A stretch of 64,000 nt of DNA from a virus. The DNA lies in the IMG/VR virus record IMGVR_UViG_3300025030_000086, positions 1-64,000 of that record, one strand, 5' to 3'. Of the stretch, positions 9,384-44,894 are shown piece by piece (within the stretch, counting starts at the first letter, position 1; every line of letters begins with the position of its first letter). The notes under the pieces were generated by a model, which saw only the letters and a list, made by a program, of their open reading frames with translations, did no database searches and was not told the origin of the DNA. The translations under genes were made by a program, and so were the position numbers.

Positions 9384-9391
9384 ATAAGAAT

Positions 9392-9421
9392 ATTATACAC
9401 CATAAAACCTAAAAAAATAAA
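9392..9421 (-). promoter_or_regulatory. Late-type promoter motif (copy 2)
   Basis: On the minus strand the motif runs from TTTATTTTTTTAGG to a perfect TATAAT, nine bases before the portal ATG at 9383. The transcript would therefore have almost no leader. The layout is identical to copies at 714-743, 10971-11000 and 11093-11122. Confidence 0.6.
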
Positions 9422-9986
9422 CGGATTTTAGACAGAGTTTGGCTAAAAGTATATTTTATATGAGGAAAACACCTATAATAGATAAATTTTTACATATGGA
9501 GTGTATTAATACAAATTTTTCATATTCTAAGAGTCCTTTCAGGACTGATGTTTAATATTTAAAATCCTTTCAGGATAATTCCTTCAGTGGTTTTGACTTT
9601 GAATTAAAAGTTTTTAGAAAGACGAACGAAACTGTAAGAAACAGCAAAGCTGTTTAGAAACAGTGTAGTTGAGTCAATAACAGAAAGTGTGTGAAACACA
9701 CTTGAAGGCGTTAGTCCGAATAAATTATATAAATAAAGTAAAGTATAGTAAACATAATACGACCTGTATAATACTGCTAAATGGTTTAAAAACCATCTCC
9801 ACTATTAGAAAGATATTTTGCTTGTTCGACTATTTTATATCCTAATAGTTTTCATACTCATTCCTATCAAATTAGACATAGGAATTTTAATGGTATGTCA
9901 TTTTTGCTATCGCACCTTAGCCTAAACAGTCTCTATTTGAAACTGCCCAATAGCTTCCTATCAAATGTAACATAGGAAGTTGCAAG
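9422..9986. ncRNA. Hairpin-rich non-coding block, candidate large structured RNA
   Basis: No supported ORF occupies these about 565 bases. They hold many short perfect inverted repeats: AGTCCT/AGGACT near 9530; ATCC/GGAT near 9575; AACAGC/GCTGTT near 9640; AAGTGTGT/ACACACTT at about 9685-9703; TGGTTT/AAACCA near 9782; ACTATTAG/CTAATAGT spanning about 9801-9849; and two related hairpins, TTCCTAT/ATAGGAA at about 9861-9884 and CTTCCTAT/ATAGGAAG at about 9954-9979, with near-identical loops. Local base composition is less AT-extreme than other intergenic DNA. The strand is uncertain. Loop purines favour plus, flanking gene direction favours minus. Large phage RNAs such as ROOL or GOLLD are similar in size and often near tRNA genes, but I cannot assign this to either. 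Confidence 0.45.
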
Positions 9987-11000: not shown

Positions 11001-11013
11001 CGTATTTATTTGG

Positions 11014-11085
11014 TTCACAGAATAGGGATCGAACCTATAACCTTTGATCCAAAGTCAAATATTTTACCAATTAAACTATCTGTGA
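11014..11085 (-). tRNA. tRNA-Gln (anticodon UUG)
   Basis: The minus strand folds into a full cloverleaf. It has a 7-bp acceptor stem (TCACAGA/TCTGTGA), T8-A9, a D-stem GTTT/AAAT with AATTGGTA loop, an anticodon stem TTTGA/TCAAA with loop CTTTGGA, and a T-arm ATAGG-TTCGATC-CCTAT, with discriminator A at 11014. The anticodon TTG reads CAA, a codon favoured in AT-rich genes. No CCA is encoded. It stands alone between two late-type promoter motifs. Confidence 0.93.
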
Positions 11086-11092
11086 TAAATCG

Positions 11093-11122
11093 TTTATTTT
11101 TTTAGGTTATATACTATATACT
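11093..11122 (+). promoter_or_regulatory. Late-type promoter motif (copy 4)
   Basis: TTTATTTTTTTAGG starts at 11093 and the motif ends with TATACT at 11117-11122, same layout as the three minus-strand copies. It drives the terminase cluster and is back-to-back with the tRNA gene. Its -10 belongs to the heptamer array that follows. Confidence 0.5.
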
Positions 11123-11158
11123 ATATACTATATACTATATACTATATACTATATACTA
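11110..11158 (+). repeat. Seven tandem TATACTA heptamers
   Basis: Seven perfect head-to-tail copies of TATACTA are followed by TATAGTATA. Each unit contains the -10-like hexamer TATACT, so the array iterates the promoter's -10 element. Copy number could vary by slippage. Confidence 0.9.
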
Positions 11159-11186
11159 TATAGTATAAATGTATCAAAGTCAAGTC

Positions 11187-14347: not shown

Positions 14348-15034
14348 ATGGGAGAAAAAGAAAAAATGGATGAAGAAGAGTTTATTAATAAATTTCCTGA
14401 AGAAGAACAAACTGAAATTAGAAAAGATTTAGAAAATCTTGCAGAGGAAAATGAAAAACTTATAGAAGAATTTACAGAAGACACTGATACTACAGATAAA
14501 AAGGTTGTTGGAAGACCCCCTGGTATTCCGGCTTCATCTGCACAGAAAGAAGCAGTAAGCAAAGCTGCAAAGAAATATCAACAAGACCTAAGAGATGGTT
14601 TAATTGAGAAACCTGCGTGGGAAACTCATGGTGCATATAGTTATATGAGTGGTGGTAGAGTTCCTAAAAAGAAAAGATATTTACTTGACTTTGTTCATAA
14701 GGAAAGAGAGAAATGGTTAGATGAATTAGGTGGGGAAGACAATCTTACCTCAATAGAAATAGCAATGCTTGATGAAGCAAGCCGTTTGTTGCTGTTTTCA
14801 ACAATGGTAAATGATTACCTTTTATCTGATAAAGATACAGATGTTGTATATAAAGATAGTGAAGGTGATATTAAAATGCACACTGGGTTATCTCGTCACT
14901 ATTTATCCTTCACCAAAACATATATACAAATTTTAAAAGAATTACAAAAAATTGCTACAACAAAAACAAAGAAAAAGGGTGGTTCAAAAAAAGACAGTGC
15001 AAGTATTTTGCAAAAGTTATATAAGGAAAATTAG
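14348..15034 (+). CDS. Possible terminase small subunit-like protein
   Basis: 228 residues in one frame from 14348. An acidic N-terminus (about 1-55) is followed by VVGRPPGIPASSAQKEAVSKA and a helical core (SIEIAMLDEASRLLLFSTMVNDYLLS...LSRHYLSFTKTYIQILKEL) and a Lys-rich tail. The core recalls P27-type small terminase subunits, and the gene is near terL, but it follows rather than precedes terL and no decisive motif is visible. Another ATG lies seven codons downstream. Confidence 0.4.
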   Translation: MGEKEKMDEEEFINKFPEEEQTEIRKDLENLAEENEKLIEEFTEDTDTTDKKVVGRPPGIPASSAQKEAVSKAAKKYQQDLRDGLIEKPAWETHGAYSYMSGGRVPKKKRYLLDFVHKEREKWLDELGGEDNLTSIEIAMLDEASRLLLFSTMVNDYLLSDKDTDVVYKDSEGDIKMHTGLSRHYLSFTKTYIQILKELQKIATTKTKKKGGSKKDSASILQKLYKEN

Positions 15035-26915: not shown

Positions 26916-27160
26916 TGAAAAGATTTAGCTTGTTATTTAGTGATGGTAAGGATTTCGTCTTTATTCCAAATAAAGAAATATGCAAGAAATTATTTGGTAA
27001 TAAGAAAAATGCTGTAATATATATTAAAAAATCTAAAAATGTGTATGCAACAGAAGGCAGGTCTATTAGTTTGTATGATTTAGAACAATGTGGGTTCAAG
27101 AAAATTAAAGCAAATGAGGAACCACAAGAAGTTCTTACTTTGTTAGATGAATTTATATGA
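26915..27160 (+). CDS. Small protein, unknown
   Basis: 81 residues from ATG 26915 (MKRFSLLFSDGKDF...), which overlaps the previous stop; the alternative TTG upstream is less likely. The frame ends in an ATGA overlap with the nuclease gene, suggesting a functional pair. No family recognised. Confidence 0.55.
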   Translation: MKRFSLLFSDGKDFVFIPNKEICKKLFGNKKNAVIYIKKSKNVYATEGRSISLYDLEQCGFKKIKANEEPQEVLTLLDEFI

Positions 27161-27807
27161 AAAAATTAACCGAAGTAGACCTTGCAAAACCTGTAATCTC
27201 CTATCTTGAAGAAAGAGGGTGGGATGTTTACCAAGAAGTATTAATATATGGTAAAATAGCTGATATTGTAGCTACTTTTGGTAAATTAACATGGATTCTT
27301 GAGTGTAAGACCTCATTATCTTTAAAATTATTGGAACAAATCTATGCTTGGAGAGGCAGGGCAAATTATTTATCTATAGTTATTCCAATTGCAGTAAGTA
27401 ATGGTTTTACAAAGGATTTATTAATAAAGAATAAAATAGGAGTTTTAACTATTAGAAATTCAGAGGTATTTGAAAATATTCACCCACAATTGAATAGGAA
27501 AGTAATAAATATACAAAAATTCATTAAACCGGAACATAAAACTTGGGCTGAAGCTGGTTCTCAACACGGTTATTATACACCTTTTCAACAAACAAAAACA
27601 AATATAGAATATAGGATTAAAAATTACCCAAATGGTATACTATTTAAAGATTTTATGAAATTGACTGAACATCACTATGCTTCTGAAGCAACGGCTAGGT
27701 CTTGTTTACAAAAATGGATAGAATCTGGTATTATAAAAGGTGCTAAAATTGTTAATCAAGACAATAAATTATTCATCTACCCAGTAATTATTGACAAGTC
27801 TAAATAA
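27157..27807 (+). CDS. PD-(D/E)xK nuclease with C-terminal winged helix
   Basis: 216 residues. The N-terminal 110 residues hold a restriction-endonuclease-like core: Glu near residue 5, GKIADIVATFG (Asp) and WILECKTS (Glu-x-Lys), the order of VRR-NUC/Holliday-resolvase-like enzymes. Residues about 145-210 (GILFKDFMKLTEHHYASEATARSCLQKWI) look like a winged helix. A structure-specific DNA nuclease in recombination, or an attack on host DNA, would fit. Ends just before a promoter. Confidence 0.7.
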   Translation: MKKLTEVDLAKPVISYLEERGWDVYQEVLIYGKIADIVATFGKLTWILECKTSLSLKLLEQIYAWRGRANYLSIVIPIAVSNGFTKDLLIKNKIGVLTIRNSEVFENIHPQLNRKVINIQKFIKPEHKTWAEAGSQHGYYTPFQQTKTNIEYRIKNYPNGILFKDFMKLTEHHYASEATARSCLQKWIESGIIKGAKIVNQDNKLFIYPVIIDKSK

Positions 27808-27818
27808 TATGGTATATT
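27791..27818 (+). promoter_or_regulatory. Sigma-A-like promoter
   Basis: TTGACA (27791-27796), 16-bp spacer, TATATT (27813-27818), within the last codons of the nuclease gene. The start site would coincide with the ATG at 27825. Confidence 0.55.
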
Positions 27819-27824
27819 AAAGAT

Positions 27825-28010
27825 ATGAAAACAATAGCAAATATATTAATAAGTTGTACAATATCGGTATGGGTATATATTTTATTTTTTGAGTCTTTGG
27901 TAAATACTTTTTTATATCAACCATTATTGGCATTAGGTCTTATATTCATAATTTATTATATTATATTTTATTTATTGGAGACATATGACAAAATACAAAA
28001 AGGGTTATAA
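27825..28010 (+). CDS. Two-span membrane protein
   Basis: 61 residues with two hydrophobic helices (NILISCTISVWVYILFF; LLALGLIFIIYYIIFYLL). Possible leaderless mRNA from the promoter at 27791. Unknown role. Confidence 0.55.
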   Translation: MKTIANILISCTISVWVYILFFESLVNTFLYQPLLALGLIFIIYYIIFYLLETYDKIQKGL

Positions 28011-28263
28011 AGTTGTTCAAAAAAGCACTTTAATTTCTTGTTCTATTCTGAATAAAGGTATTAAATACAAAGTAAATGATTGGGTTAAACCTAGGAAAGA
28101 TTGTGGGCCTTTGTGTGTATTTGATTCTTTATCATGTATTAAAAAATATTAATCCCATAACACAGATACTATTTATGAATGTTTATATGAACCAGATTTA
28201 GAAGAAAATTTTGTATATTTACAAACTTCATCAGTATTTTTGAATTTGCCATATTTAACATGA
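27985..28263 (+). pseudogene. Phage hypothetical gene interrupted by an in-frame TAA
   Basis: ATG 27985 opens 55 codons (MTKYKKGYKVVQKSTLISCS...CGPLCVFDSL) to TAA 28150-28152. The same frame continues for 36 sense codons (SHNTDTIYECLYEPDLEENFV...) to TGA 28261-28263, which overlaps the next ATG. The whole resembles a known phage family (YKVV...CGPL.VF...FECEYEP). The stop therefore seems to be a recent nonsense change or a read-through site. Confidence 0.6.
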
Positions 28264-28499
28264 GGTACGGTATTGGCAAAAAAGGTAAAACTTATAAAAA
28301 GGATCCGCTAAAAAGGAGATTCATGGATTGGGAAGAGGCTTGTAAAATATCAGATTCTTCTATAGCTGTAAGAATAGATGAAAATGGTACAAAAATTCAT
28401 AGAAATTCCTTTGGAGTATGGTATTTCAATTCTGAATTTACTGGAATATATCTTGAAGAGAAAACAGCAGAAGGTTTTCTTGATTGGAAACCATTCTAA
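28260..28499 (+). CDS. Small W-EACK domain protein
   Basis: 79 residues. MDWEEACKISDSSIAVRIDENG...GFLDWKPF matches the 29668-29868 product (MHWTEACKKSPIGIAERRD...GYLDWTPC), so these are paralogues. The start overlaps the previous frame's stop. Function unknown. Confidence 0.6.
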   Translation: MRYGIGKKGKTYKKDPLKRRFMDWEEACKISDSSIAVRIDENGTKIHRNSFGVWYFNSEFTGIYLEEKTAEGFLDWKPF

Positions 28500-28526
28500 A
28501 TATATGAAATGATTGAGGAATATTAG

Positions 28527-28679
28527 ATGAATTGTTCTCTATGTAATACAGAATGTATTAGGGATGTTGTTGATAATGGTGTTGGTGAAGAATATTCTCC
28601 TTGGTCTTGTCCCAATTGTGGGTGGTATCAAGGAGATGAAGTAGATGAATTATTTAAGGAGGAATACAAGATATGTTAA
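28527..28679 (+). CDS. Zinc-ribbon microprotein
   Basis: 50 residues: MNCSLCNTECIRD and WSCPNCGWYQGDE form a CxxC/CxxC ribbon with an acidic tail. Stop overlaps the following start. Confidence 0.6.
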   Translation: MNCSLCNTECIRDVVDNGVGEEYSPWSCPNCGWYQGDEVDELFKEEYKIC

Positions 28680-28879
28680 CAAAATTAGCGGTTAGATACT
28701 TAACATATAAGTTGAGAAAAGATAAGGGTTTTTGGATAAGTTATCAATCCAATATAGCAATGACTTTTTTTGATAATTATTATAAATTTTTTCCTAAAAC
28801 AAGGCATTCAAGATTATCTATATCTAAATTTTGTAATACAAGTGCTGAAGATTTTTTAAATCTATGGACAAGGAGATAG
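28673..28879 (+). CDS. Small basic protein, unknown
   Basis: 68 residues, basic and aromatic (RYLTYKLRKDKGFWISY). AAGGAGG lies ten bases before the ATG. No family recognised. Confidence 0.5.
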   Translation: MLTKLAVRYLTYKLRKDKGFWISYQSNIAMTFFDNYYKFFPKTRHSRLSISKFCNTSAEDFLNLWTRR

Positions 28880-28881
28880 AA

Positions 28882-29145
28882 ATGATACGAAAAAATCCTT
28901 ACCAAATGCTTTTGGATAAAATTGTTACTTTTTGTAATAATGATATTATTTATAGACATCAAAAATTAATGTTTATATATCCGATAGATAAATTAACTAA
29001 TACTTGGACTATGAATCAATTATATGAAAGAGTGGTGGCAGCGGATCAATTAAGATATGATGTAGTATTGAAATCTACAAATAATGGCTTAGAAGTTCAT
29101 TATATTAAACAGATAGAAATACCTATTGAATGGAGAAATTATTAA
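28882..29145 (+). CDS. Small protein, unknown
   Basis: 87 residues from ATG 28882, preceded by AAGGAGATAG; an in-frame ATG at 28864 lacks a ribosome site. Mixed helical sequence with a short beta C-terminus. Unknown. Confidence 0.55.
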   Translation: MIRKNPYQMLLDKIVTFCNNDIIYRHQKLMFIYPIDKLTNTWTMNQLYERVVAADQLRYDVVLKSTNNGLEVHYIKQIEIPIEWRNY

Positions 29146-29339
29146 TGGCTGATTATTATTTAGATACGATGGATTATGGAGATGAAGAGAACTACCCCTA
29201 TCCTTATAAAATGGATAGGGGGCCTGGGAAATGTCCCATATGTGGTGATTTTACATTTAAAAGAAAGGGGAAATTTGGTTCTTTTTATGGCTGTAGTAAA
29301 TATCCTATATGCAAAGGGAGTAGATGTTTTGATGAATAA
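29145..29339 (+). CDS. Topoisomerase-type zinc-ribbon protein
   Basis: 64 residues from ATG 29145 (TAATG overlap); a start at 29130 is possible. CPICGDFTFKRKGKFGSFYG followed by CSKYPICKGSR is the four-Cys zinc finger of bacterial topoisomerase I C-terminal domains, which bind single-stranded DNA. Here it is a stand-alone unit. Confidence 0.7.
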   Translation: MADYYLDTMDYGDEENYPYPYKMDRGPGKCPICGDFTFKRKGKFGSFYGCSKYPICKGSRCFDE

Positions 29340-29538
29340 AATGGTAAAAAAGAAGTGTGTTTGGTATTGTTATGTATGTGGAAAAGCGTTAGGTAAGATT
29401 TTCTCACTGGCTTCGATGAGGAATAGTACGGATAGAGTATTTTTAGCACATATAAAATGTTCGGTTCAAATAGGTGATTCTTTTATAATGGATGTAGAAA
29501 AGAAAAGCATTAAATATTCAGAAGAAGAAAGGATATAA
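29332..29538 (+). CDS. Small zinc-binding protein
   Basis: 68 residues from ATG 29332 overlapping the previous stop; the frame is open further upstream only as a shadow. CYVCGKALG plus a later HIKC gives one ribbon. Unknown. Confidence 0.5.
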   Translation: MNKMVKKKCVWYCYVCGKALGKIFSLASMRNSTDRVFLAHIKCSVQIGDSFIMDVEKKSIKYSEEERI

Positions 29539-29546
29539 TTTATGCT

Positions 29547-29666
29547 ATGTTAGGTAAATTCTTACTTTATCTATTAAATGAAATAATATTTTTTATCTGT
29601 ATGTTTATAGGATTTAGATATAGGAACACTAAGCTATATAATAAAGTTTCTAAATTGGTTATATAA
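29547..29666 (+). CDS. Membrane microprotein
   Basis: 39 residues with a hydrophobic helix (FLLYLLNEIIFFICMFIG) and a basic C-terminus. The ribosome site (AAGGATAT) is weak. Unknown. Confidence 0.4.
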   Translation: MLGKFLLYLLNEIIFFICMFIGFRYRNTKLYNKVSKLVI

Positions 29667-29667
29667 A

Positions 29668-29868
29668 ATGCATTGGACAGAGGCTTGTAAAAAATCCCCA
29701 ATAGGAATAGCGGAAAGAAGAGATTTAGATACAGAAGTAGAATCAATCTATTATAAATATAAAGAAGGACATGTAGTAGGTAAGAAAAATGGTATATACT
29801 ATTATAATAATATTCCTATGTTTAAAATAGAGGGTTATTTAGATTGGACACCTTGTTATAAAATATAA
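29668..29868 (+). CDS. Small W-EACK domain protein
   Basis: 66 residues, paralogue of 28260-28499: MHWTEACKKSPIGIAERRDL, a GIYYYNN turn and C-terminal GYLDWTPC. Last gene before the large non-coding block. Unknown. Confidence 0.6.
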   Translation: MHWTEACKKSPIGIAERRDLDTEVESIYYKYKEGHVVGKKNGIYYYNNIPMFKIEGYLDWTPCYKI

Positions 29869-29892
29869 TTTTTCCCAATTTTTTCAATAGTT

Positions 29893-30613
29893 TAGACATA
29901 CCCCCTAACATAAATAATTTATATCTATTGGCAATCCTGAAAAATATGGTCGGTATTTTTATACCCCATCCGGCTTATTTCTCGCTTGCAATTAAAAATA
30001 ATCACTAAAGTATTGATTTTATTGATATTTTTGGTGATGGTCTGTTAATAACTTTTGTGAATAATAAGACATTCTTTTACATATTAGTTGCATAAAAGCG
30101 TAAACTATTGATTTTATTAATGTTTATTTATGGTTTACACTTCTGATATACTGTAAACCTCATATAGGAATGTTTCACTTTGAAACATTATAGACAATAA
30201 ACTGAACATCATAATTAGTGAATAAATGTCTATTAGTTGATATACTATACCTCATATACACTATATATTGTATAATAAGTAATAAAATACTATAGATTAT
30301 CAGATATATGAGTAATGATATGTTATATCTATAAGACTAAAGAAATAGAATAAAGCATTATACTATAGATTGCTATACATGATAGATGTTATTAAAATAA
30401 TAATAGAAGCTGATCATATACATGTTAATCATAAATCCGGTTAATGGTAGTAAATATATAAAATAGACATTAATAACTATATATGCTATAGATATATAAT
30501 TTAACACTTAATAGGGGGTTATATATGCAGTCTGTTTAATAGCAGACTTACATACATAAATAATCATTAATCTTTTAATAGGATATTGCTTATATAGGAT
30601 ATCCTATTTTTTT
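29893..30613 (+). ncRNA. Large structured non-coding block, candidate RNA gene
   Basis: About 720 bases without a supported ORF. A promoter-like TAGACA-N16-TAATTT sits at the left end and a terminator (30577-30613) at the right. Between them are strong inverted repeats: GGTTTACA/TGTAAACC (30132-30139/30152-30159), AATGTTTCA/TGAAACATT (30169-30177/30181-30189), TAGACA/TGTCTA near 30190-30230, AGTCTG/CAGACT near 30530. Repeats include ATTGATTTTATT twice and ATACTATAGATT twice. The pattern suggests a long structured transcript. An AT-rich replication-origin segment is the main alternative. Confidence 0.45.
30577..30613 (+). terminator. Intrinsic terminator
   Basis: AATAGGATAT (30577-30586) pairs perfectly with ATATCCTATT (30599-30608), loop of 12, and the stem runs into seven T. 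It ends any transcript from the left. Confidence 0.8.
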
Positions 30614-30795
30614 ATCTCTACACTGCCATATCCTTGTTTTAATCCACTTTTTATTACTCCACTTATATCTTAGTATTGTTTATCTGTATAACCTGCTATA
30701 CAGGCGGATAAGCGTTATAATTAGTATTTATTAATTATTGACAAAAACAAAAAAAGTATTATTATAATAATAGAACATCATTTCAGGGGATTAAA
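30614..30795 (+). promoter_or_regulatory. Promoter region of the small-gene cluster
   Basis: No gene. It contains CCTG/CAGG hairpin bases near 30700 and a promoter TTGACA (30738-30743), 16-bp spacer, TATTAT (30760-30765; TATAAT three bases further). An AGGGG site precedes the ATG at 30796. Confidence 0.5.
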
Positions 30796-31059
30796 ATGAG
30801 TATATTATTAAAAATGGATAGCAAAAAAAGAGTAAATAGTCTCAAGGGTAAAATAGTAATAATTGAGACTAATAAAATAGATTTATTAAATTCTACATTC
30901 CAGACTACTGTATATGTAACAGAAATAAGAAAATTTATATCTGAAAAAGCCTCTTTAGAATTTGTTAAATCATTAAATTGTAAGGATGTAAAAAATGTCT
31001 TTATATCAGATAATAGAAATATAATAAAAACAAACGTAACGCATTTGACAAAAAAATAG
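30796..31059 (+). CDS. Small protein, unknown
   Basis: 87 residues, first gene of the cluster. Lys-rich, alternating beta/helix (GKIVIIETNKIDLLN...). SD AGGGG. No family recognised. Confidence 0.55.
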   Translation: MSILLKMDSKKRVNSLKGKIVIIETNKIDLLNSTFQTTVYVTEIRKFISEKASLEFVKSLNCKDVKNVFISDNRNIIKTNVTHLTKK

Positions 31060-31068
31060 GGGGTTGAA

Positions 31069-31182
31069 ATGAAAACTTTATCTTTTAAAATAGCAGTAAA
31101 GGGGGTAATCTACACGGTCTCTTTACTGGAGTTGCAAACATTACAGATAAAACATATTACTTTTAGATATGTTATAGGATAG
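31069..31182 (+). CDS. 37-residue ORF
   Basis: MKTLSFKIAVKGVIYTVSLL...; preceded by AGGGGGTTGA at ideal spacing, which is the reason to accept it. The peptide VKGVIYTVSLLELQ recalls the 31295 ORF. Unknown. Confidence 0.45.
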   Translation: MKTLSFKIAVKGVIYTVSLLELQTLQIKHITFRYVIG

Positions 31183-31230
31183 GGGGTTGAAATGGATATA
31201 TCTGAAATATGAGATAGAAAATATTTTAAA

Positions 31231-31289
31231 TAATAATTAATGTATAGGAATATATATCCGATAAAGTATATGGAACATAAATAGGGGGT
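31231..31289 (+). repeat. Leader repeat copy 1
   Basis: About 60 bp containing the inverted repeat GGAATATATATCC followed by GATAAAGTATATGGAACATAA and the SD AGGGGGT. Near-identical copies lie at 32206-32266 and 33292-33349, each directly before a gene. Confidence 0.8.
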
Positions 31290-31294
31290 GTAAA

Positions 31295-31417
31295 ATGGAA
31301 AAGAAAATCATATACAAAGTCAAGATAGAAAACAGGTTTTTCACCTTAACAGAAGTTGAATACAAGGCTTTAGTTGCGAAAGGTAAAATAATTAATGTGC
31401 TTTACAAGGGGGTATAA
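31295..31417 (+). CDS. 40-residue ORF
   Basis: MEKKIIYKVKIENRFFTLTE...; SD AGGGGGT eight bases upstream. The end overlaps the region of the next SD. Unknown. Confidence 0.5.
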   Translation: MEKKIIYKVKIENRFFTLTEVEYKALVAKGKIINVLYKGV

Positions 31418-31418
31418 A

Positions 31419-31637
31419 ATGACTAAAAAAGATTATATAAAGATAGCAGATACATTAATTGACAGTTTTAAGGATTGTTGCGGATTGGAGTCGAATGACA
31501 TACGTTATATCCATAGATTATATCTCAATAAGTTTTGTGACATGTTAACAGTAGATAATAGTAAGTTTGATGTTAATAAATTTAAAGAGTATATTGAGAA
31601 AAGAATAAGGATTGATTCTACAATGGAGTTAAAATAA
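31419..31637 (+). CDS. Small helical protein, unknown
   Basis: 72 residues from ATG 31419 (MTKKDYIKIADTLIDSFKDC...), supported by AAGGGGGT. The longer frame from 31395 lacks a site. Helical throughout. Unknown. Confidence 0.55.
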   Translation: MTKKDYIKIADTLIDSFKDCCGLESNDIRYIHRLYLNKFCDMLTVDNSKFDVNKFKEYIEKRIRIDSTMELK

Positions 31638-31732
31638 TGGAACTAATAACAGGTATAATATTATTGATCAATTTGGTTGCCGTTGTTTTGGTTGCAGTAA
31701 TATCAATAATAATGTATTTATTGAAAGGATAA
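31637..31732 (+). CDS. Membrane microprotein
   Basis: 31 residues, almost all one membrane helix (GIILLINLVAVVLVAVIS). TAATG overlap with the previous gene. Unknown. Confidence 0.5.
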   Translation: MELITGIILLINLVAVVLVAVISIIMYLLKG

Positions 31733-31738
31733 TAAAAA

Positions 31739-31873
31739 ATGATAATAGTAGGAGTATTGAACATTAAAACTAATATAATAGAAAATAAGTTTTTGAGTAG
31801 AAATGAAATAAAAGATTTACTGTCTAAAGGGGTATCAGTTTACTATCGTTTGAATGATTTTTGGATATTATAA
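31739..31873 (+). CDS. 44-residue ORF
   Basis: MIIVGVLNIKTNIIENKFLS...; resembles the 31295 ORF in layout (short beta strand, then FLSRNEIKDLLSKG). SD is weak (GGATAATAAA). Unknown. Confidence 0.45.
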   Translation: MIIVGVLNIKTNIIENKFLSRNEIKDLLSKGVSVYYRLNDFWIL

Positions 31874-31883
31874 AGGGGGTAAT

Positions 31884-32054
31884 ATGGAAAATATTATGCA
31901 AGAAATTAAAAAGGACTATGATAATGCTGAAAATTTCTTTTTTTCATATGATAGAAGTATCGTAACATTTACTTGTATAAAGGACGGGGTGTTACATAGA
32001 ATGATGTATAACAGAAGATTAAAATTATATACTATTACAGAAATAGGGGGGTAA
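31884..32054 (+). CDS. Small protein, unknown
   Basis: 56 residues from ATG 31884 (MENIMQEIKKDYDNAENF...) with AGGGGGT six bases upstream. The segment SIVTFTCIKDGVLHRMMY is beta-like. Unknown. Confidence 0.5.
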   Translation: MENIMQEIKKDYDNAENFFFSYDRSIVTFTCIKDGVLHRMMYNRRLKLYTITEIGG

Positions 32055-32055
32055 T

Positions 32056-32208
32056 ATGGAAAGCGTAGTTATAAAAGAGGAAAATATGAAAAATGGATCT
32101 TTAACTCTATTCAATCCTGTTAATAAATTAATAAATAATAGGATTATAGTAAATGGGATTGCTATGACTATACAGGAGTTTAGGGTAATGAAAGAGGGGG
32201 TTAAATAA
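32056..32208 (+). CDS. Small protein, unknown
   Basis: 50 residues. NNRIIVNGIAMTIQEFRVMKEG resembles the 48020-48229 product (VKINGKTMTVDEFKKGK), indicating a small shared domain. SD AGGGGGGT. Unknown. Confidence 0.5.
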   Translation: MESVVIKEENMKNGSLTLFNPVNKLINNRIIVNGIAMTIQEFRVMKEGVK

Positions 32209-32266
32209 TAATTAATGTATAGGAATATATATCCGATAAAGTATGTAGACATAAATCAGGGGGGTT
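32206..32266 (+). repeat. Leader repeat copy 2
   Basis: Same element as at 31231, with GGAATATATATCCGATAAAGTATG, ending in AGGGGGGT before the gene at 32270. Confidence 0.8.
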
Positions 32267-32269
32267 AAA

Positions 32270-32458
32270 ATGATTATAACAATTACGAATAAAGAACATA
32301 AAGAGTACATAAAGGGTAAATATGTTAGTGCTCATAATTTTGTAACTTGTATAGAAAATAATATATTATTTATTGATTTTACTTATTTTACTAACACTTT
32401 GACAAGAAAATACTGTCGGTATTATCCATCAACAAAACTCTTTATATTAGTAAAATAA
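32270..32458 (+). CDS. Small protein, unknown
   Basis: 62 residues (MIITITNKEHKEYIKGKYVS...), beta-rich, aromatic C-terminus. Directly behind leader repeat 2. Unknown. Confidence 0.5.
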   Translation: MIITITNKEHKEYIKGKYVSAHNFVTCIENNILFIDFTYFTNTLTRKYCRYYPSTKLFILVK

Positions 32459-32480
32459 CAATTATATATAGGGGGTTGAA

Positions 32481-32699
32481 ATGACAAAAATAATTAGAAT
32501 AGAAAGAATGGCAGCAAAAAAAGGATATATCATTAATATTGCTCCTGCTAATAGCTGGATAGGAAGCAAGGGTAAGGGAAAATGGGCATACAGCCTTTAT
32601 ATTAAGGGGCAGGGCATATATGAGCCTATTAAAGCTTATGGATCATTGATAAAATTGGAAGAGTCATTAAAACAAATTTTTTTATCTTTATCTTATTAA
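32481..32699 (+). CDS. Small basic protein, unknown
   Basis: 72 residues with GSKGKGKWAYSLYIKG in the middle; SD AGGGGGTTGA. Unknown. Confidence 0.5.
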   Translation: MTKIIRIERMAAKKGYIINIAPANSWIGSKGKGKWAYSLYIKGQGIYEPIKAYGSLIKLEESLKQIFLSLSY

Positions 32700-32712
32700 A
32701 GGGGGTTAAATA

Positions 32713-32841
32713 ATGGAAAATATGGAAAGGGCATTAAATCCGGTTGCGTTAAAAATATTGATAGAAAATAAGCAAAAATATGTATCGGATACACTTAGTA
32801 TATTAGCAGAATTGTTAAAAAAATTAAAGGGGGTAAAATGA
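32713..32841 (+). CDS. 42-residue ORF
   Basis: MENMERALNPVALKILIENK...; helical. SD AGGGGGT; stop overlaps the next start (ATGA). Unknown. Confidence 0.5.
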   Translation: MENMERALNPVALKILIENKQKYVSDTLSILAELLKKLKGVK

Positions 32842-33308
32842 TAAATATACAAGTATATCAAGAAATTGCACGGGTTTTGAATGCTATGGAAAATTGCAGG
32901 AAAATAAAAAAAGATAGTAATGAAACACTATATAATGAAACATACTGGTATGATAGACATGCTGAAAAGGTAGATTATATTATTAAAAACTATTTACCCC
33001 ACGGATCAGGGATTGACAGCAAAACTGAAATAGACTTTGCAAAAAGTAATGATGATAAGATAGTAATTAATAGTGGATATCATTGTATGAATTCAAATGG
33101 TTATTATGATGGATGGGTCAATTTTAGAATATTAATAATTCCTTGTTTACTTTTTGGTTTTAAACTAAAGATAATAGGTAATTTTGGGAAGTATAAACAT
33201 GTAAAGGATTATTTATATGATTTATATCATTATAATCTTGATCAAAATTTTGATACTGAAAAGTATAATAGATTTTATGATGATAACAATAAAATTAATG
33301 TATCCTGA
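32838..33308 (+). CDS. Conserved phage hypothetical protein
   Basis: 156 residues. NYLPHGSGIDSKTEIDFAKS, YHCMNSNGYYDGWVNFRILI and KDYLYDLYHYNL follow a pattern I have met in uncharacterised phage and plasmid proteins (PHGSGxD...YDGW...). No catalytic motif is obvious. The gene is the largest in this small-gene cluster. Confidence 0.55.
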   Translation: MINIQVYQEIARVLNAMENCRKIKKDSNETLYNETYWYDRHAEKVDYIIKNYLPHGSGIDSKTEIDFAKSNDDKIVINSGYHCMNSNGYYDGWVNFRILIIPCLLFGFKLKIIGNFGKYKHVKDYLYDLYHYNLDQNFDTEKYNRFYDDNNKINVS

Positions 33309-33349
33309 AATATATCCGATAAAGTATATAGAACATAAATGAGGGGGTT
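33292..33349 (+). repeat. Leader repeat copy 3
   Basis: Diverged copy of the 31231 element (AATATATCCGATAAAGTATA), ending GAGGGGGTTG before the gene at 33353. Confidence 0.75.
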
Positions 33350-33352
33350 GAA

Positions 33353-33634
33353 ATGAAAATTATTACAAAAATAATGGAAGTTTATGAATTTTCGGAACTG
33401 AATGAGGATGCAAAAAAGAAGGTAATAAATAATTATATTAATTTTTTATTGGAAGCTTTACCATATGAGGATATGTCGGAAAATATGAAAAAAGCTTGTG
33501 ATAAAGCTGAACATATGAGAACCCCTTGGTTTACGGGTAGTTACATTTTTGATTATTGTATAGATGAGTTGCAGGAGACATTACAAAACTGTTATGAATT
33601 TTTGGCCGATGGTAGCATTTATAGTGATAATTAA
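33353..33634 (+). CDS. Conserved phage hypothetical protein
   Basis: 93 residues. VYEFSELNEDAKKKVINNYI is the start of a small family found in phages and mobile DNA (Y.F.EL...AK.KA...), followed by an acidic helix and FTGSYIFDYCIDE. Function unknown. SD GAGGGGGTTG. Confidence 0.55.
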   Translation: MKIITKIMEVYEFSELNEDAKKKVINNYINFLLEALPYEDMSENMKKACDKAEHMRTPWFTGSYIFDYCIDELQETLQNCYEFLADGSIYSDN

Positions 33635-33646
33635 GGGGGTGGAGTA

Positions 33647-33916
33647 ATGAAAATTCCTAAAAAATATACTGGATACAAGTTTAAGAGAAAATTATTAAAT
33701 AAAATACTTAAATATGCATATCCGCCAACATATAATGCACGCAATGCAATTGGTTATTCATTCTCCATTACCCTGGAAAATGATATATATAATTGGGTGG
33801 GTGGGTGGGATTTTGATACGCATGATATAAAAGAGGATTTTTTCCTGGATTTTAAAGATTTTGTAGTATATTATATAGAGTCTGGGGAAGCAGTTGCAAG
33901 AGGGGGGTTGAAATGA
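33647..33916 (+). CDS. Small protein, unknown
   Basis: 89 residues. Basic N-terminus, Trp-rich middle (DIYNWVGGWDFDTHD). SD AAGGGGGTGG. Overlaps the next gene by four bases. Unknown. Confidence 0.5.
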   Translation: MKIPKKYTGYKFKRKLLNKILKYAYPPTYNARNAIGYSFSITLENDIYNWVGGWDFDTHDIKEDFFLDFKDFVVYYIESGEAVARGGLK

Positions 33917-34116
33917 AAAATGAGAATGAAAAGTTAGGGTTACGTTTATCAAGTTACATTTGTAATGAAATGTTGCTAATTTGTGGGATGACATATCAAG
34001 AGTGTTTAGAATTTACAAAAAAACTTGAAATTATGGTTAAACAGTCAGATTTTTTAGAATTATACGATGGAACTACTTATTATAAAACATTTACACCGAT
34101 AGAAAAGAGGGGGTAA
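33913..34116 (+). CDS. Small protein, unknown
   Basis: 67 residues, helical with two Cys (ICNEMLLICGM). ATGA overlap with the previous gene. Unknown. Confidence 0.5.
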   Translation: MKNENEKLGLRLSSYICNEMLLICGMTYQECLEFTKKLEIMVKQSDFLELYDGTTYYKTFTPIEKRG

Positions 34117-34120
34117 AATT

Positions 34121-34300
34121 ATGCTTTATAAAGTAATTACTGTAAAAAATAAAAAAGAGAAAATTTTTACTGATAATACTTGCAATGGAGTTATTTTCAA
34201 TTTTTGTGATAATTTTTTAAAGTTTTGGAATGTATCATATGAGATATATGAGTATAGCAATAAAAAATGGGTGTTAATTGGATATAGTAATAATCCGTAA
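34121..34300 (+). CDS. Small protein, unknown
   Basis: 59 residues (MLYKVITVKNKKEKIFTDN...), beta-rich. SD GAGGGGGT. Unknown. Confidence 0.5.
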   Translation: MLYKVITVKNKKEKIFTDNTCNGVIFNFCDNFLKFWNVSYEIYEYSNKKWVLIGYSNNP

Positions 34301-34312
34301 AGGGGGTTATAA

Positions 34313-34970: not shown

Positions 34971-35280
34971 ATAAAAAATGTTACAAATTGAAACAAAAAC
35001 AATATATTGTGTTGCAAAAATGATACATACAAGATATAGTCATACCATATATAGTATGTTACGAAAAAGTAACACAACATATAGTCATACCATATATAGT
35101 GTTGTAAAAATGATACACCACAAATGGATATATGAGGAAGTCTCAAAACTGCAAAAATGAGCTACCTACTTCAGATACCAAAATTGAGATACCAATTTAG
35201 GATGAGCTACCTACTTCAGATACCAATTTTAATAAAAATATTTGACAATTAATAAAATTAAGATATACTGATAATTAGAA
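34971..35280. other. Repeat-rich intergenic region, candidate replication origin
   Basis: Non-coding apart from short chance frames. It holds a duplicated segment (ATAGTCATACCATATATAGT at about 35037 and 35080), a TGTTAC/GTAACA hairpin, and two GAGCTACCTACTTCAGATAC blocks (35159, 35204) with AGATACCAATTT. Together with the upstream arrays this makes about 540 bp of direct and inverted repeats between a terminator and a promoter. Confidence 0.45.
35242..35269 (+). promoter_or_regulatory. TTGACA-N16-TATACT promoter
   Basis: TTGACA 35242-35247, TATACT 35264-35269, followed by GATAATTAG. First member of the uniform promoter family of the 35-46 kb region. Confidence 0.75.
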
Positions 35281-38740: not shown

Positions 38741-40425
38741 AAACAATCCATATTAAAGATAATGTATTAATAATAAAGATACCGTATGATATTAATCTTG
38801 TATCATTAATCAAGACTTTCTTTTCCGGTAGGTCATGGGATAGCAATTTAAAAGTCTGGAAGTGCCCTGTAAATGAAAAGAATTTAATAGCTACCTACTC
38901 CATGATAGAAAATCATGACTTTACTGTATTTCCTGAAATGATGATTGAACTCGAAAAATATAAAGGACAATTTGAAATACAGAAGGTTGAAAATGAAAAG
39001 AAGATAGCAGCCTCAAAAGCTATAGATGCAAATATTGAGATACCTAATTTGAAGGGAGAACTCTTCCCGTTTCAAAAAGCAGGAGTGCAATTCATAGAAA
39101 ATACCAATGGTAAAACCTTAATAGCTGATGAAATGGGGTTAGGGAAGACCTTGCAATCAATAGCTTATTGCCAATTACATGCAGAAAAAAGACCTATTTT
39201 AGTTATTTGTCCAGCAACATTAAAGTTGAATTGGCAAAGAGAATTTAGAAAATGGACAAATATAAAAAGCTATGTTATAAATTCGCAAGATCTCAAATAT
39301 CAGCTACCTATCTATGAAGCATACATTATTAATTATGATATAGTGGGGAAAATGGAAACATTGCTGAATAAGATGAAATTTCAAGTAATGATATTGGATG
39401 AAGCACATTATTTGAAAAACCCAAAAGCATTACGGTCAAAAGCAATAAATGGATTAAATAAGAATATACCCCATATTTTGGCATTAACTGGTACACCAAT
39501 ACTTAATAGACCTGTTGAAATATTTAATATTTTAAAGATGTTAAGTCCTCAAAATTTTGGCAATTATTTTGATTTTGTGAAAAGATATTGTGGAGCTACC
39601 TATGGAAAATGGGGTCTGGATGTATCAGGAGCTACCAATATTCAAGAATTAAGTGATAAATTACGAGCAACAGTAATGATCAGAAGGGAAAAAAAGGATG
39701 TATTGGCAGAATTACCAGACAAGACAAGGGTAGTAGTCCCTCAAATATGTGATTTAAAAGCATACAAAAAAGTAGAGGATGATTTAATAAATTACTTAAT
39801 TGAATCAAAGAATAAGTCAAAACTTGCAGCGGAAAAAATTAGTCAAGTAGAACAATTGGCAAAAGTTGAATATGCAAAACAGGAAGCGGTTAAAGCAAAA
39901 CTCCCCCTATTTATTGAATGGAGTAAAGATTTTATTGAGGAAAATGGTAAATTAGTAATTTTTGCTCATCATAAAGAATTTGTTGAAAAGTTAATGTTTG
40001 AACTGAAGGACTATAATCCGGTTAAAATAGTGGGTGGTATGGAAATTGAGGATAAACAATCCTCAATAGATGCTTTCCAAAATAATAAAGAATGTAAAGT
40101 AATTATTTGTAGTCTAAAAGCCGCTGGTGTTGGGATAACTTTAGTTGCAAGTAGTTATGTAGCATTTTTAGAGTTAGGATGGACACCCGGTGAACATGAT
40201 CAGGCTGAAGATAGACTACACCGGATAGGGCAGAAAGATAATGTTACTTGTTATTATTTTTTGGCAGAAAATACTATTGAGGAAACAATTTACGATCTAC
40301 TTCAGAAAAAAAGAGATATTTTTCAAAAACTAATGCAAGATCAACATACAATTATAGGAACTCTTGATAATAATATTCTGAATGATTTAACAAATAAAAT
40401 AGTAAATAAAAATGAAGTTAATTAG
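38737..40425 (+). CDS. SNF2-family DNA helicase/translocase
   Basis: 562 residues. A small N-terminal domain (1-100) with FFSGRSWDSNLKVWKCPV precedes the helicase core: motif I ADEMGLGKTLQS (about 129), II ILDEAHYLKN (about 220), III LALTGTPILN, and in the second lobe VIICSLKAAGVGITL and motif VI QAEDRLHRIGQ. The N-terminal wrap resembles HARP/SMARCAL1-like proteins. It should translocate on duplex or forked DNA, aiding replication restart. The C-terminal residues (KNEVN) overlap the start of a homing endonuclease gene. Confidence 0.92.
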   Translation: MKTIHIKDNVLIIKIPYDINLVSLIKTFFSGRSWDSNLKVWKCPVNEKNLIATYSMIENHDFTVFPEMMIELEKYKGQFEIQKVENEKKIAASKAIDANIEIPNLKGELFPFQKAGVQFIENTNGKTLIADEMGLGKTLQSIAYCQLHAEKRPILVICPATLKLNWQREFRKWTNIKSYVINSQDLKYQLPIYEAYIINYDIVGKMETLLNKMKFQVMILDEAHYLKNPKALRSKAINGLNKNIPHILALTGTPILNRPVEIFNILKMLSPQNFGNYFDFVKRYCGATYGKWGLDVSGATNIQELSDKLRATVMIRREKKDVLAELPDKTRVVVPQICDLKAYKKVEDDLINYLIESKNKSKLAAEKISQVEQLAKVEYAKQEAVKAKLPLFIEWSKDFIEENGKLVIFAHHKEFVEKLMFELKDYNPVKIVGGMEIEDKQSSIDAFQNNKECKVIICSLKAAGVGITLVASSYVAFLELGWTPGEHDQAEDRLHRIGQKDNVTCYYFLAENTIEETIYDLLQKKRDIFQKLMQDQHTIIGTLDNNILNDLTNKIVNKNEVN

Positions 40426-40981
40426 AAAATTGGGGACAAGAATAAGTAAAAGTGGTCGGTTAGTAAGTTATGGTATATATCTTTGTCCATTTCCAGAATG
40501 TTTAGCAGAAGTTGAAAGACCTTTGGGTAATGGGGAAAGAAAAAAGTCTTGTGGGTGTAGAAGAAAAAAGGGGAATAGCTATACAAGATTATATAAAATT
40601 TGGACAGGTGTTAAAAATAGATGTTTTAATTCCAACAATCAAGCATATTTAGACTATGGTGGAAGAGGAATAACAATATGTCCAGAATGGACAAATGATT
40701 ATACTACTTTCAGAGATTGGGCATTAAATAATGGTTATCAAGAAAACTTAGTTATTGATAGGATTAATCCTGATGGTAATTATGAACCCTCTAATTGTAG
40801 ATGGTTAACAATATTAGAAAGTTTGAGAAATAAGACAAATACAATAACTATGGAAATAGCTAATGAAATTAGAGATTTGTATAAAACAAAAAATTTTACT
40901 CAACAAGAAATAGCTGATAAATTTAATGTAAGTCAAGAAACAGTGTCTTTAATTATAAATAATAAGCAATGGATAAAATAA
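40412..40981 (+). CDS. Homing endonuclease-like protein (zinc ribbon, YGGRGI body, HTH)
   Basis: 189 residues with all three modules: zinc ribbon (CPFPECLAEVER...KKSCGC), YGGRGITICPEW...VIDRINPDGNYEPSNCRW body, and HTH (NEIRDLYKTKNFTQQEIAD). The ATG lies 14 bases inside the SNF2 gene, and the shared bases AATGAAGTTAATTAG end that protein. It is followed directly by ATG of the next gene (TAAATG). Best-preserved member of the family. Confidence 0.77.
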   Translation: MKLIRKLGTRISKSGRLVSYGIYLCPFPECLAEVERPLGNGERKKSCGCRRKKGNSYTRLYKIWTGVKNRCFNSNNQAYLDYGGRGITICPEWTNDYTTFRDWALNNGYQENLVIDRINPDGNYEPSNCRWLTILESLRNKTNTITMEIANEIRDLYKTKNFTQQEIADKFNVSQETVSLIINNKQWIK

Positions 40982-44279: not shown

Positions 44280-44894
44280 ATGCGATTAATTAGAAAATTA
44301 GGAACAAGGAAAAATAAAACAGGTAATAATTATACGAGTTGGGGTGTATTTTGGTGTAACTTTTGTAAACAAGAGGTAGAAAAAGAATTATCTGTTGGTA
44401 GAAGGTATAAATCTTGTGGTTGTGTAAGATATTCAGAAAATAAGGGTGATTATAAACATGGTGGAAAAGGGACAAAATTATATAATGTATGGCAATCTAT
44501 AAAACAAAGAATTTTAAATCCAAATAATGAAGCATATAAAGATTATGGTGGTAGAGGAATAACAATATGTCCAGAATGGACAAATAAAGAAAATGGATTT
44601 ATAAATTTCAGAGATTGGTCACTAAGTAATGGTTACAAAGAAGGATTACAAATAAATAGAATAAATAATGATGGTAATTATGAACCATCTAATTGTAATT
44701 TTATCCCAGCTAAAGAAAATAATAAAAATCAAAGATTGAGAAAAGATAGTAAAATAAAAAATATTGAAATAGCTAATGAAATTAGAGCTTTATATGCTAT
44801 AGGAAATTATATACAAAAAGAGTTAGCAAGTAGATTTAATATAAGTCAAGCAACAATTTCTTTAATTATTAATAACAAACAATGGGTGAAATAA
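44280..44894 (+). CDS. Homing endonuclease-like protein (zinc ribbon, YGGRGI body, HTH)
   Basis: 204 residues, longest of this subtype. Ribbon (CNFCKQEVEKELSVGRRYKSCGC), linker with YKHGGKGTKLYNVW, body (YGGRGITICPEW, INRINNDGNYEPSNCNF) and HTH (NEIRALYAIGNYIQKELAS). The YKHGGKGTKLY segment is the closest match to the fragment at 14236. Placed between two small unknown genes with three-base and zero-base gaps. Confidence 0.76.
   Translation: MRLIRKLGTRKNKTGNNYTSWGVFWCNFCKQEVEKELSVGRRYKSCGCVRYSENKGDYKHGGKGTKLYNVWQSIKQRILNPNNEAYKDYGGRGITICPEWTNKENGFINFRDWSLSNGYKEGLQINRINNDGNYEPSNCNFIPAKENNKNQRLRKDSKIKNIEIANEIRALYAIGNYIQKELASRFNISQATISLIINNKQWVK

Follow-up and report, generated by a model that had tools for sequence, protein, structure and literature searches.

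The virus record studied here (73,157 bp), of which bases 1-64000 form the analysed window, encodes portal, terminase, DNA polymerase, clamp, clamp loader, UvsX-like recombinase, SSB, primase and DnaB-like helicase proteins, and therefore belongs to a tailed phage that brings a replisome of its own. Besides these, HNH endonuclease genes are numerous (40412-40981 and 44280-44894, as well as record positions 66091, 67989, 70348 and 72493 onward), several of them alike at DNA level. The protein of L040:576-1406 (record 64075-64905) matches the beta-glucosyl-HMC-alpha-glucosyltransferase family, so the phage DNA may be modified.

Eight gaps of at least 250 bp without an ORF of at least 60 aa occur in the 73,157-bp record. 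The biggest spans 29869-30795, between plus-strand genes on both sides (upstream ORF end 29868, next ORF start 30796), and is followed in size by a gap of 603 bp (9384-9986). This gap is real and uncommon; the gene-free region reported by the first-pass annotation is thus borne out, with no ORF of at least 60 aa and abundant stops in all six frames (17 to 34 per frame). Over 900 bp, GC is nowhere in the record lower than in windows that begin inside this gap (29991-30201). The features of the block and its right-hand border are as follows.

29869-30795, no strand: ORF-less block, 927 bp, GC 0.244 (record 0.292)
29893-29920, plus: TAGACA-N16-TAATTT, promoter of the first-pass annotation; chance-level and outside the promoter class of the phage
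29900-29907, plus: predicted 5' arm of the closing helix P1, ACCCCCTA, mean pair probability 0.94
29920-29933, plus: predicted 5' arm of P2 (8 + 4 bp), pairing with 30484-30496
29983-30100, plus: predicted arm, a 13-bp helix (29983-29995/30084-30100) enclosing a hairpin at 30001-30038
30006-30030, plus: direct repeat copy 1, 22/25 identical to 30101-30125, 95 nt apart
30101-30125, plus: direct repeat copy 2, partner of 30006-30030
30114-30128, plus: predicted 5' arm of a long-range 15-bp helix, partner 30462-30476
30132-30159, plus: hairpin GGTTTACA/TGTAAACC with a 12-nt loop
30144-30258, plus: second repeated motif, TGATATACTGTAAACCTCATATA at 30144 and TGATATACTATACCTCATATA at 30238
30169-30189, no strand: palindrome AATGTTTCA-CTT-TGAAACATT, candidate hairpin or protein-binding site
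30462-30476, plus: predicted 3' arm of the long-range 15-bp helix, partner 30114-30128
30484-30496, plus: predicted 3' arm of P2
30512-30519, plus: predicted 3' arm of P1, TAGGGGGT, doubling as Shine-Dalgarno-like sequence of a 4-codon ORF
30512-30539, plus: TAGGGGGTTATATATG followed by the 4-codon ORF (MQSV), candidate gene fossil or leader
30529-30548, plus: hairpin AGTCTGTT/AGCAGACT, spanning the 4-codon ORF
30577-30613, plus: intrinsic-terminator-like hairpin with T7, arms AATAGGATAT/ATATCCTATT at 30577-30586/30599-30608
30738-30765, plus: promoter TTGACA-N16-TATTAT of the next operon, of the phage class
30796-31059, plus: 87-aa ORF that opens the next operon

The right end of the block carries the 10-bp stem with T7 described by the first-pass annotation. 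The stem and T-run (from 30577, stem end 30608) are the sole match of the record to a perfect stem of at least 9 bp with a loop of 3-14 and T6, against 0.45 such matches expected in a shuffled genome on both strands. The promoter of the next operon, of the phage class, comes only after this terminator, at 30738-30765, and shares its 16-nt spacing with the class members at 35242, 35638, 37798, 42537 and 45831; the hairpin at 30577 and the subsequent promoter at 30738 mark a junction between two operons. The class members read TTGACA-N16-TATACT-(A/G)ATAAT, with an ATAAT box after the -10, and three copies are alike in much of their spacer and downstream sequence. The 30796 ORF has no match in PHROGs. 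It contains a perfect 9-bp hairpin, TAGTCTCAA/TTGAGACTA, at 30837-30871 (z -3.82).

The left end differs from its earlier description. The promoter proposed at 29893 is at chance level: its -10, TAATTT, matches in 3/6 positions only, sites as good occur 0.76 times per kb per strand with a spacer of 16 and 2.4 times per kb with spacers of 16-18, and a weight matrix derived from the phage's own promoters ranks 29893 at 14,717 of 146,238 positions. Its 16-nt spacer is that of the phage class, as had been claimed (TTGACA-N16-TATNNT counts 7 sites at spacer 16 vs 4, 1 and 3 at spacers 15, 17 and 18), but its sequence is not. A transcript start near 29925 is wrong for this reason, and also because the closing helix P1, predicted from 29900 on, needs upstream sequence and would place the start of an RNA upstream of that position. 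TATAAT is present in full slightly upstream of 29893, at 29864-29869, without a good -35, and a 10/12 promoter match ends at 29642 within the upstream ORF; both are putative only. No promoter for a block RNA was found, which counts against transcription as an RNA gene.

Inside the block, the stems GGTTTACA/TGTAAACC (30132/30152) and AATGTTTCA/TGAAACATT (30169/30181) named by the first-pass annotation are present exactly, but the excess of stems over shuffles is modest, with 5 perfect 8-bp stems vs 3.1 +/- 1.8 and 17 perfect 7-bp stems vs 8.9 +/- 3.1. The palindrome at 30169 has one weak further copy, with 3 mismatches, at 34977. The 25-nt direct repeat is equalled by none of 200 shuffles and is nevertheless a weak signal, since 7 of 38 coding segments carry a direct repeat as good. 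It sits within an imperfect duplication of about 95 nt, whose units 1-2 align better than 500/500 shuffles and units 2-3 weakly (P 0.05), while other units do not align. Both 25-nt copies can be folded as hairpins, and their flanks differ yet pair (flank-shuffle P 0.008 and 0.023). Tandem Repeats Finder detects no tandem array of about 95 nt in the block, and direct repeats are not in excess in a gapped self-BLAST of it.

The plus strand of 29869-30618 folds lower than all of 110 dinucleotide shuffles (z -2.83; z -3.50 with 20 shuffles), values that are partly post hoc, as a first fold had used narrower bounds. These bounds take in the C5 stretch at 29900, which lies outside 29920-30618; the latter reaches z -2.96 with 20 shuffles or -2.33 with 60. 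The minus strand of 29869-30618 is weaker (z -2.18, 4/110 shuffles as low), and among control folds 1/21 reaches z -2.21. Only 1/72 shuffles has an ensemble diversity as low as that of the block, but one of 12 coding controls (segment 25600) folds at least as definitely. Pair probabilities exceed 0.6 in P1, P2, 29983-29995/30084-30100, 30001-30038, 30114-30128/30462-30476, 30169-30189, 30190-30233 and others. P1 comprises 8 bp and is GC-rich within a block of 24% GC; among 2000 shuffled blocks, 1% contain its ACCCCCT. The hairpin at 30001-30038 is predicted with at least 15 bp, G-U pairs included. Long-range pairs are ordinary, as 7/72 shuffles reach 31. In a scan of 501 tiles of 120 nt, which extended short of the far end of the record, the plus-strand block mean of -0.87 ranks 47 of 495 runs and is unremarkable; tile structure on the plus strand is higher from 30469 onward, in a stretch running past the block, than in the block itself. 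The fold is accordingly a hypothesis with moderate support, in view of its excess over shuffles on one side and the equal coding control, the unremarkable tiles and the partly post hoc bounds on the other.

The next-biggest gap, 9384-9986, is probably the other structured block of the first-pass annotation. It is ORF-less over 603 bp, with the portal gene on one side and a DUF559-type nuclease gene on the other, and its plus strand folds at z -3.82 (0/30 shuffles as low), its minus strand at z -2.06. With the relative L045 only the 206 nt adjoining the portal gene are in common (83%), the rest is not. Tandem TATACTA-like heptamers lie at 11104-11165 by tRNA-Gln, ahead of the terminase operon, where they coincide with the cumulative GC-skew minimum and the point of divergent transcription. 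An exact 18-nt repeat, CGTTTATTTTTTTAGGTT, is located at 9423 (minus) and 11091 (plus), ahead of both divergent operons, and is possibly a late-promoter element.

None of the fetched relatives covers 29869-30795. Protein scans of viral_contigs were performed with the terminase and the 27157, 30796, 25514, 38737, 22005 and 35687 ORFs. The terminase yields 7 loci of 81-83% identity on contigs of at most 29.6 kb, the nearest relatives fetched; their similarity in aligned stretches stops near window 23,600, the best match to the block being 45 nt at 78%, and the 7 records, compared over their full length with window 27000-33000, give two short matches (49 and 35 query bases), both off the block. 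The RNA ligase (22005) is found at 2 loci. The 25514 gene occurs at 10 loci, with no neighbouring genes common with the window in the same place, save a distant helicase match in 6. Scans with 27157 and 35687 reveal 17 and 2 distant loci, respectively (28-49% identity), the 17 of 27157 alone being compared with the block by word-7 BLAST; those with the 30796 and 38737 ORFs gave nothing confirmed in viral_contigs. One locus only (L043) contains the DNA pattern of the block repeat, judged a chance match. In genome_contigs neither the terminase nor the promoter pattern has a match, and the phage collection gives no DNA match. Named phages provide distant protein matches only, with polymerase and terminase below 30% identity among the matches listed. 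A search of the 4227 Rfam families, with hits admitted to E 5, gave no real match to the block; rli37 (E 2.3), the sole hit, was judged chance.

The block thus contains no gene, ends in a terminator-like hairpin above chance and folds moderately above chance. It is most likely, though tentatively so, an orphan large structured non-coding RNA or an RNA tail, similar to that of phage ICP1. Transcription of the block, its 5' end, its fold and any function are inferred. The plus strand would give rise to a large structured non-coding RNA, which would be free-standing or else the processed tail of the upstream operon. It would begin upstream of 29900 rather than at 29925 and finish at the terminator near 30613, and the helices P1 (29900-29907/30512-30519) and P2 (29920-29933/30484-30496) would bring the RNA ends together around several arms. 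Points for such an RNA are the size of the gap, the unique terminator-like hairpin, the plus-strand fold, the ensemble, the fold z of ICP1 and the GC-rich P1; points against it are a GC content below that of the genome, unlike ICP1, the tile rank of 47/495 and a coding control that folds as definitely. The large non-coding RNA of the first-pass annotation therefore gains from the terminator above chance, the fold beyond 110/110 shuffles and the ICP1 precedent, and loses its start. As to the observation overall, gap, named stems and terminator-like hairpin stand, the promoter falls, and the stem excess is modest.

That the block is a plain inter-operon spacer with decayed genes is less likely, though a serious rival. 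The operon of 24-29.9 kb would end at the 30577 terminator and the operon of cassette genes would begin from the promoter at 30738; the 4-codon ORF and its strong ribosome-binding site would be what is left of a cassette gene that was lost. Such a spacer agrees with the order of terminator-like hairpin and phage-class promoter, with the moderate fold excess, and with the Shine-Dalgarno sequences ahead of the 4-codon ORF at 30512 and of a 6-codon frame at 31181-31212, the latter also strong; moreover, 15 of the 20 plus-strand AGGGGGT copies lie within 30513-34301, mostly ahead of cassette genes. However, the other ORF-less gaps of this phage measure at most 603 bp, against which some 700 bp from the last gene to the terminator are long, and no gene remnant is recognisable in the block, as a comparison with 523 own ORFs gave no convincing protein match (a pseudogene was rejected on this ground, best E 0.002 over 15 aa). 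Cis-acting DNA, e.g. a replication origin or protein-binding region with AT-rich unwinding, degenerate repeats of about 95 nt and palindromes to which a phage protein would bind, is likewise a less likely but serious rival. The first-pass annotation had offered an origin as alternative, and AT-richness and degenerate repeat indeed fit: the block holds the lowest 900-bp GC of the record, a 25-nt repeat and alignable units 1-2 above all shuffles, and perfect palindromes, in a phage with its own polymerase, clamp, clamp loader, primase and DnaB-like helicase, and the PLE satellite origin (see below) is a precedent. On the other hand, regular iterons are absent, units beyond 1-2 aligning weakly or not, coding segments carry direct repeats as good, only one DnaA-box-like site, TTATNCACA, is found in the block, with no cluster, and no initiator gene is recognised adjacent to it. 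The GC-skew check proposed for an origin shows no switch of third-position skew at the block (bootstrap difference -0.10 to 0.06, with 0.37 left vs 0.40 right); cumulative skew reaches its minimum near 11 kb by the TATACTA tandem array, but tracks gene direction. Recombination-dependent phage replication need not leave skew, so an origin is still compatible with the absent switch.

An extension of the preferred RNA concerns the AGGGGGT array. Most of the 15 copies in 30513-34301 serve as Shine-Dalgarno sequences of small ORFs. The small-ORF array with AGGGGGT covers 31058-34301; genes at 24-29.5 kb possess mostly GGAGAT-like Shine-Dalgarno sequences. The block itself has one AGGGGGT (before the 4-codon ORF) and one ACCCCCT, paired in the predicted fold. 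It is conceivable, but highly improbable, that a block RNA acts as a C5 switch, whose 5' ACCCCCU would either close on its own 3' UAGGGGGU or pair with the downstream AGGGGGU Shine-Dalgarno sequences; if true, one phage RNA would turn down a whole array of cassette genes. A 40-nt piece has a mean duplex energy of -17.6 kcal/mol with the 20 copies, vs -9.3 for 86 control pieces (1/86 as low). CCCCC is counted 31 times on the plus strand, and pairing with the array leaders, although possible, would be expected of any C5.

If transcribed, the block would add one more large orphan RNA, from a phage lineage that has no close named relatives, and its named closing helix would predict which pairs should covary. 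Among known systems, the origin of the PLE satellite lies in 2.7 kb of non-coding DNA that holds four repeat sequences (PMC7145576). The block resembles it as a long non-coding region bearing repeats and differs in that no RepA-like neighbour is recognised and no regular repeat array is present. GOLLD and ROOL are large phage RNAs of comparable size range, described as of unknown function and as having models in Rfam (PMC12286853). The block differs from them by having no covariance-model match in Rfam at E up to 5; a GOLLD search of the record likewise gave no match, in a search that detected 0/14 controls. Neither is the block near a tRNA island, a proximity that is frequent there, not obligatory: the only tRNA of the 64-kb window, over which the tRNA search extended short of the last 9 kb of the record, is located at 11011-11085. 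Phages rarely keep a kilobase gene-free. For ICP1, PMC7567579 describes an ORF-less space of about 1 kb with a verified non-coding RNA of about 800 nt between gp139 and gp140, the most abundant ICP1 transcript by RNA-seq. GC is raised in ICP1 (0.396 vs 0.376 in the surroundings) and lowered here (0.244 vs 0.292). Both are ORF-less spaces of about 1 kb in dense genomes, not beside tRNAs, with similar length and fold z. The annotated ICP1 gap (80097-81107 of HQ641347, 801 nt folded) reaches z -3.48 on the minus strand, on which its flanking genes lie as well, against -2.12 on the plus strand (20 shuffles each); with -3.48 vs -3.50 by the same tool and shuffle number, the block resembles the known case by this fold measure.
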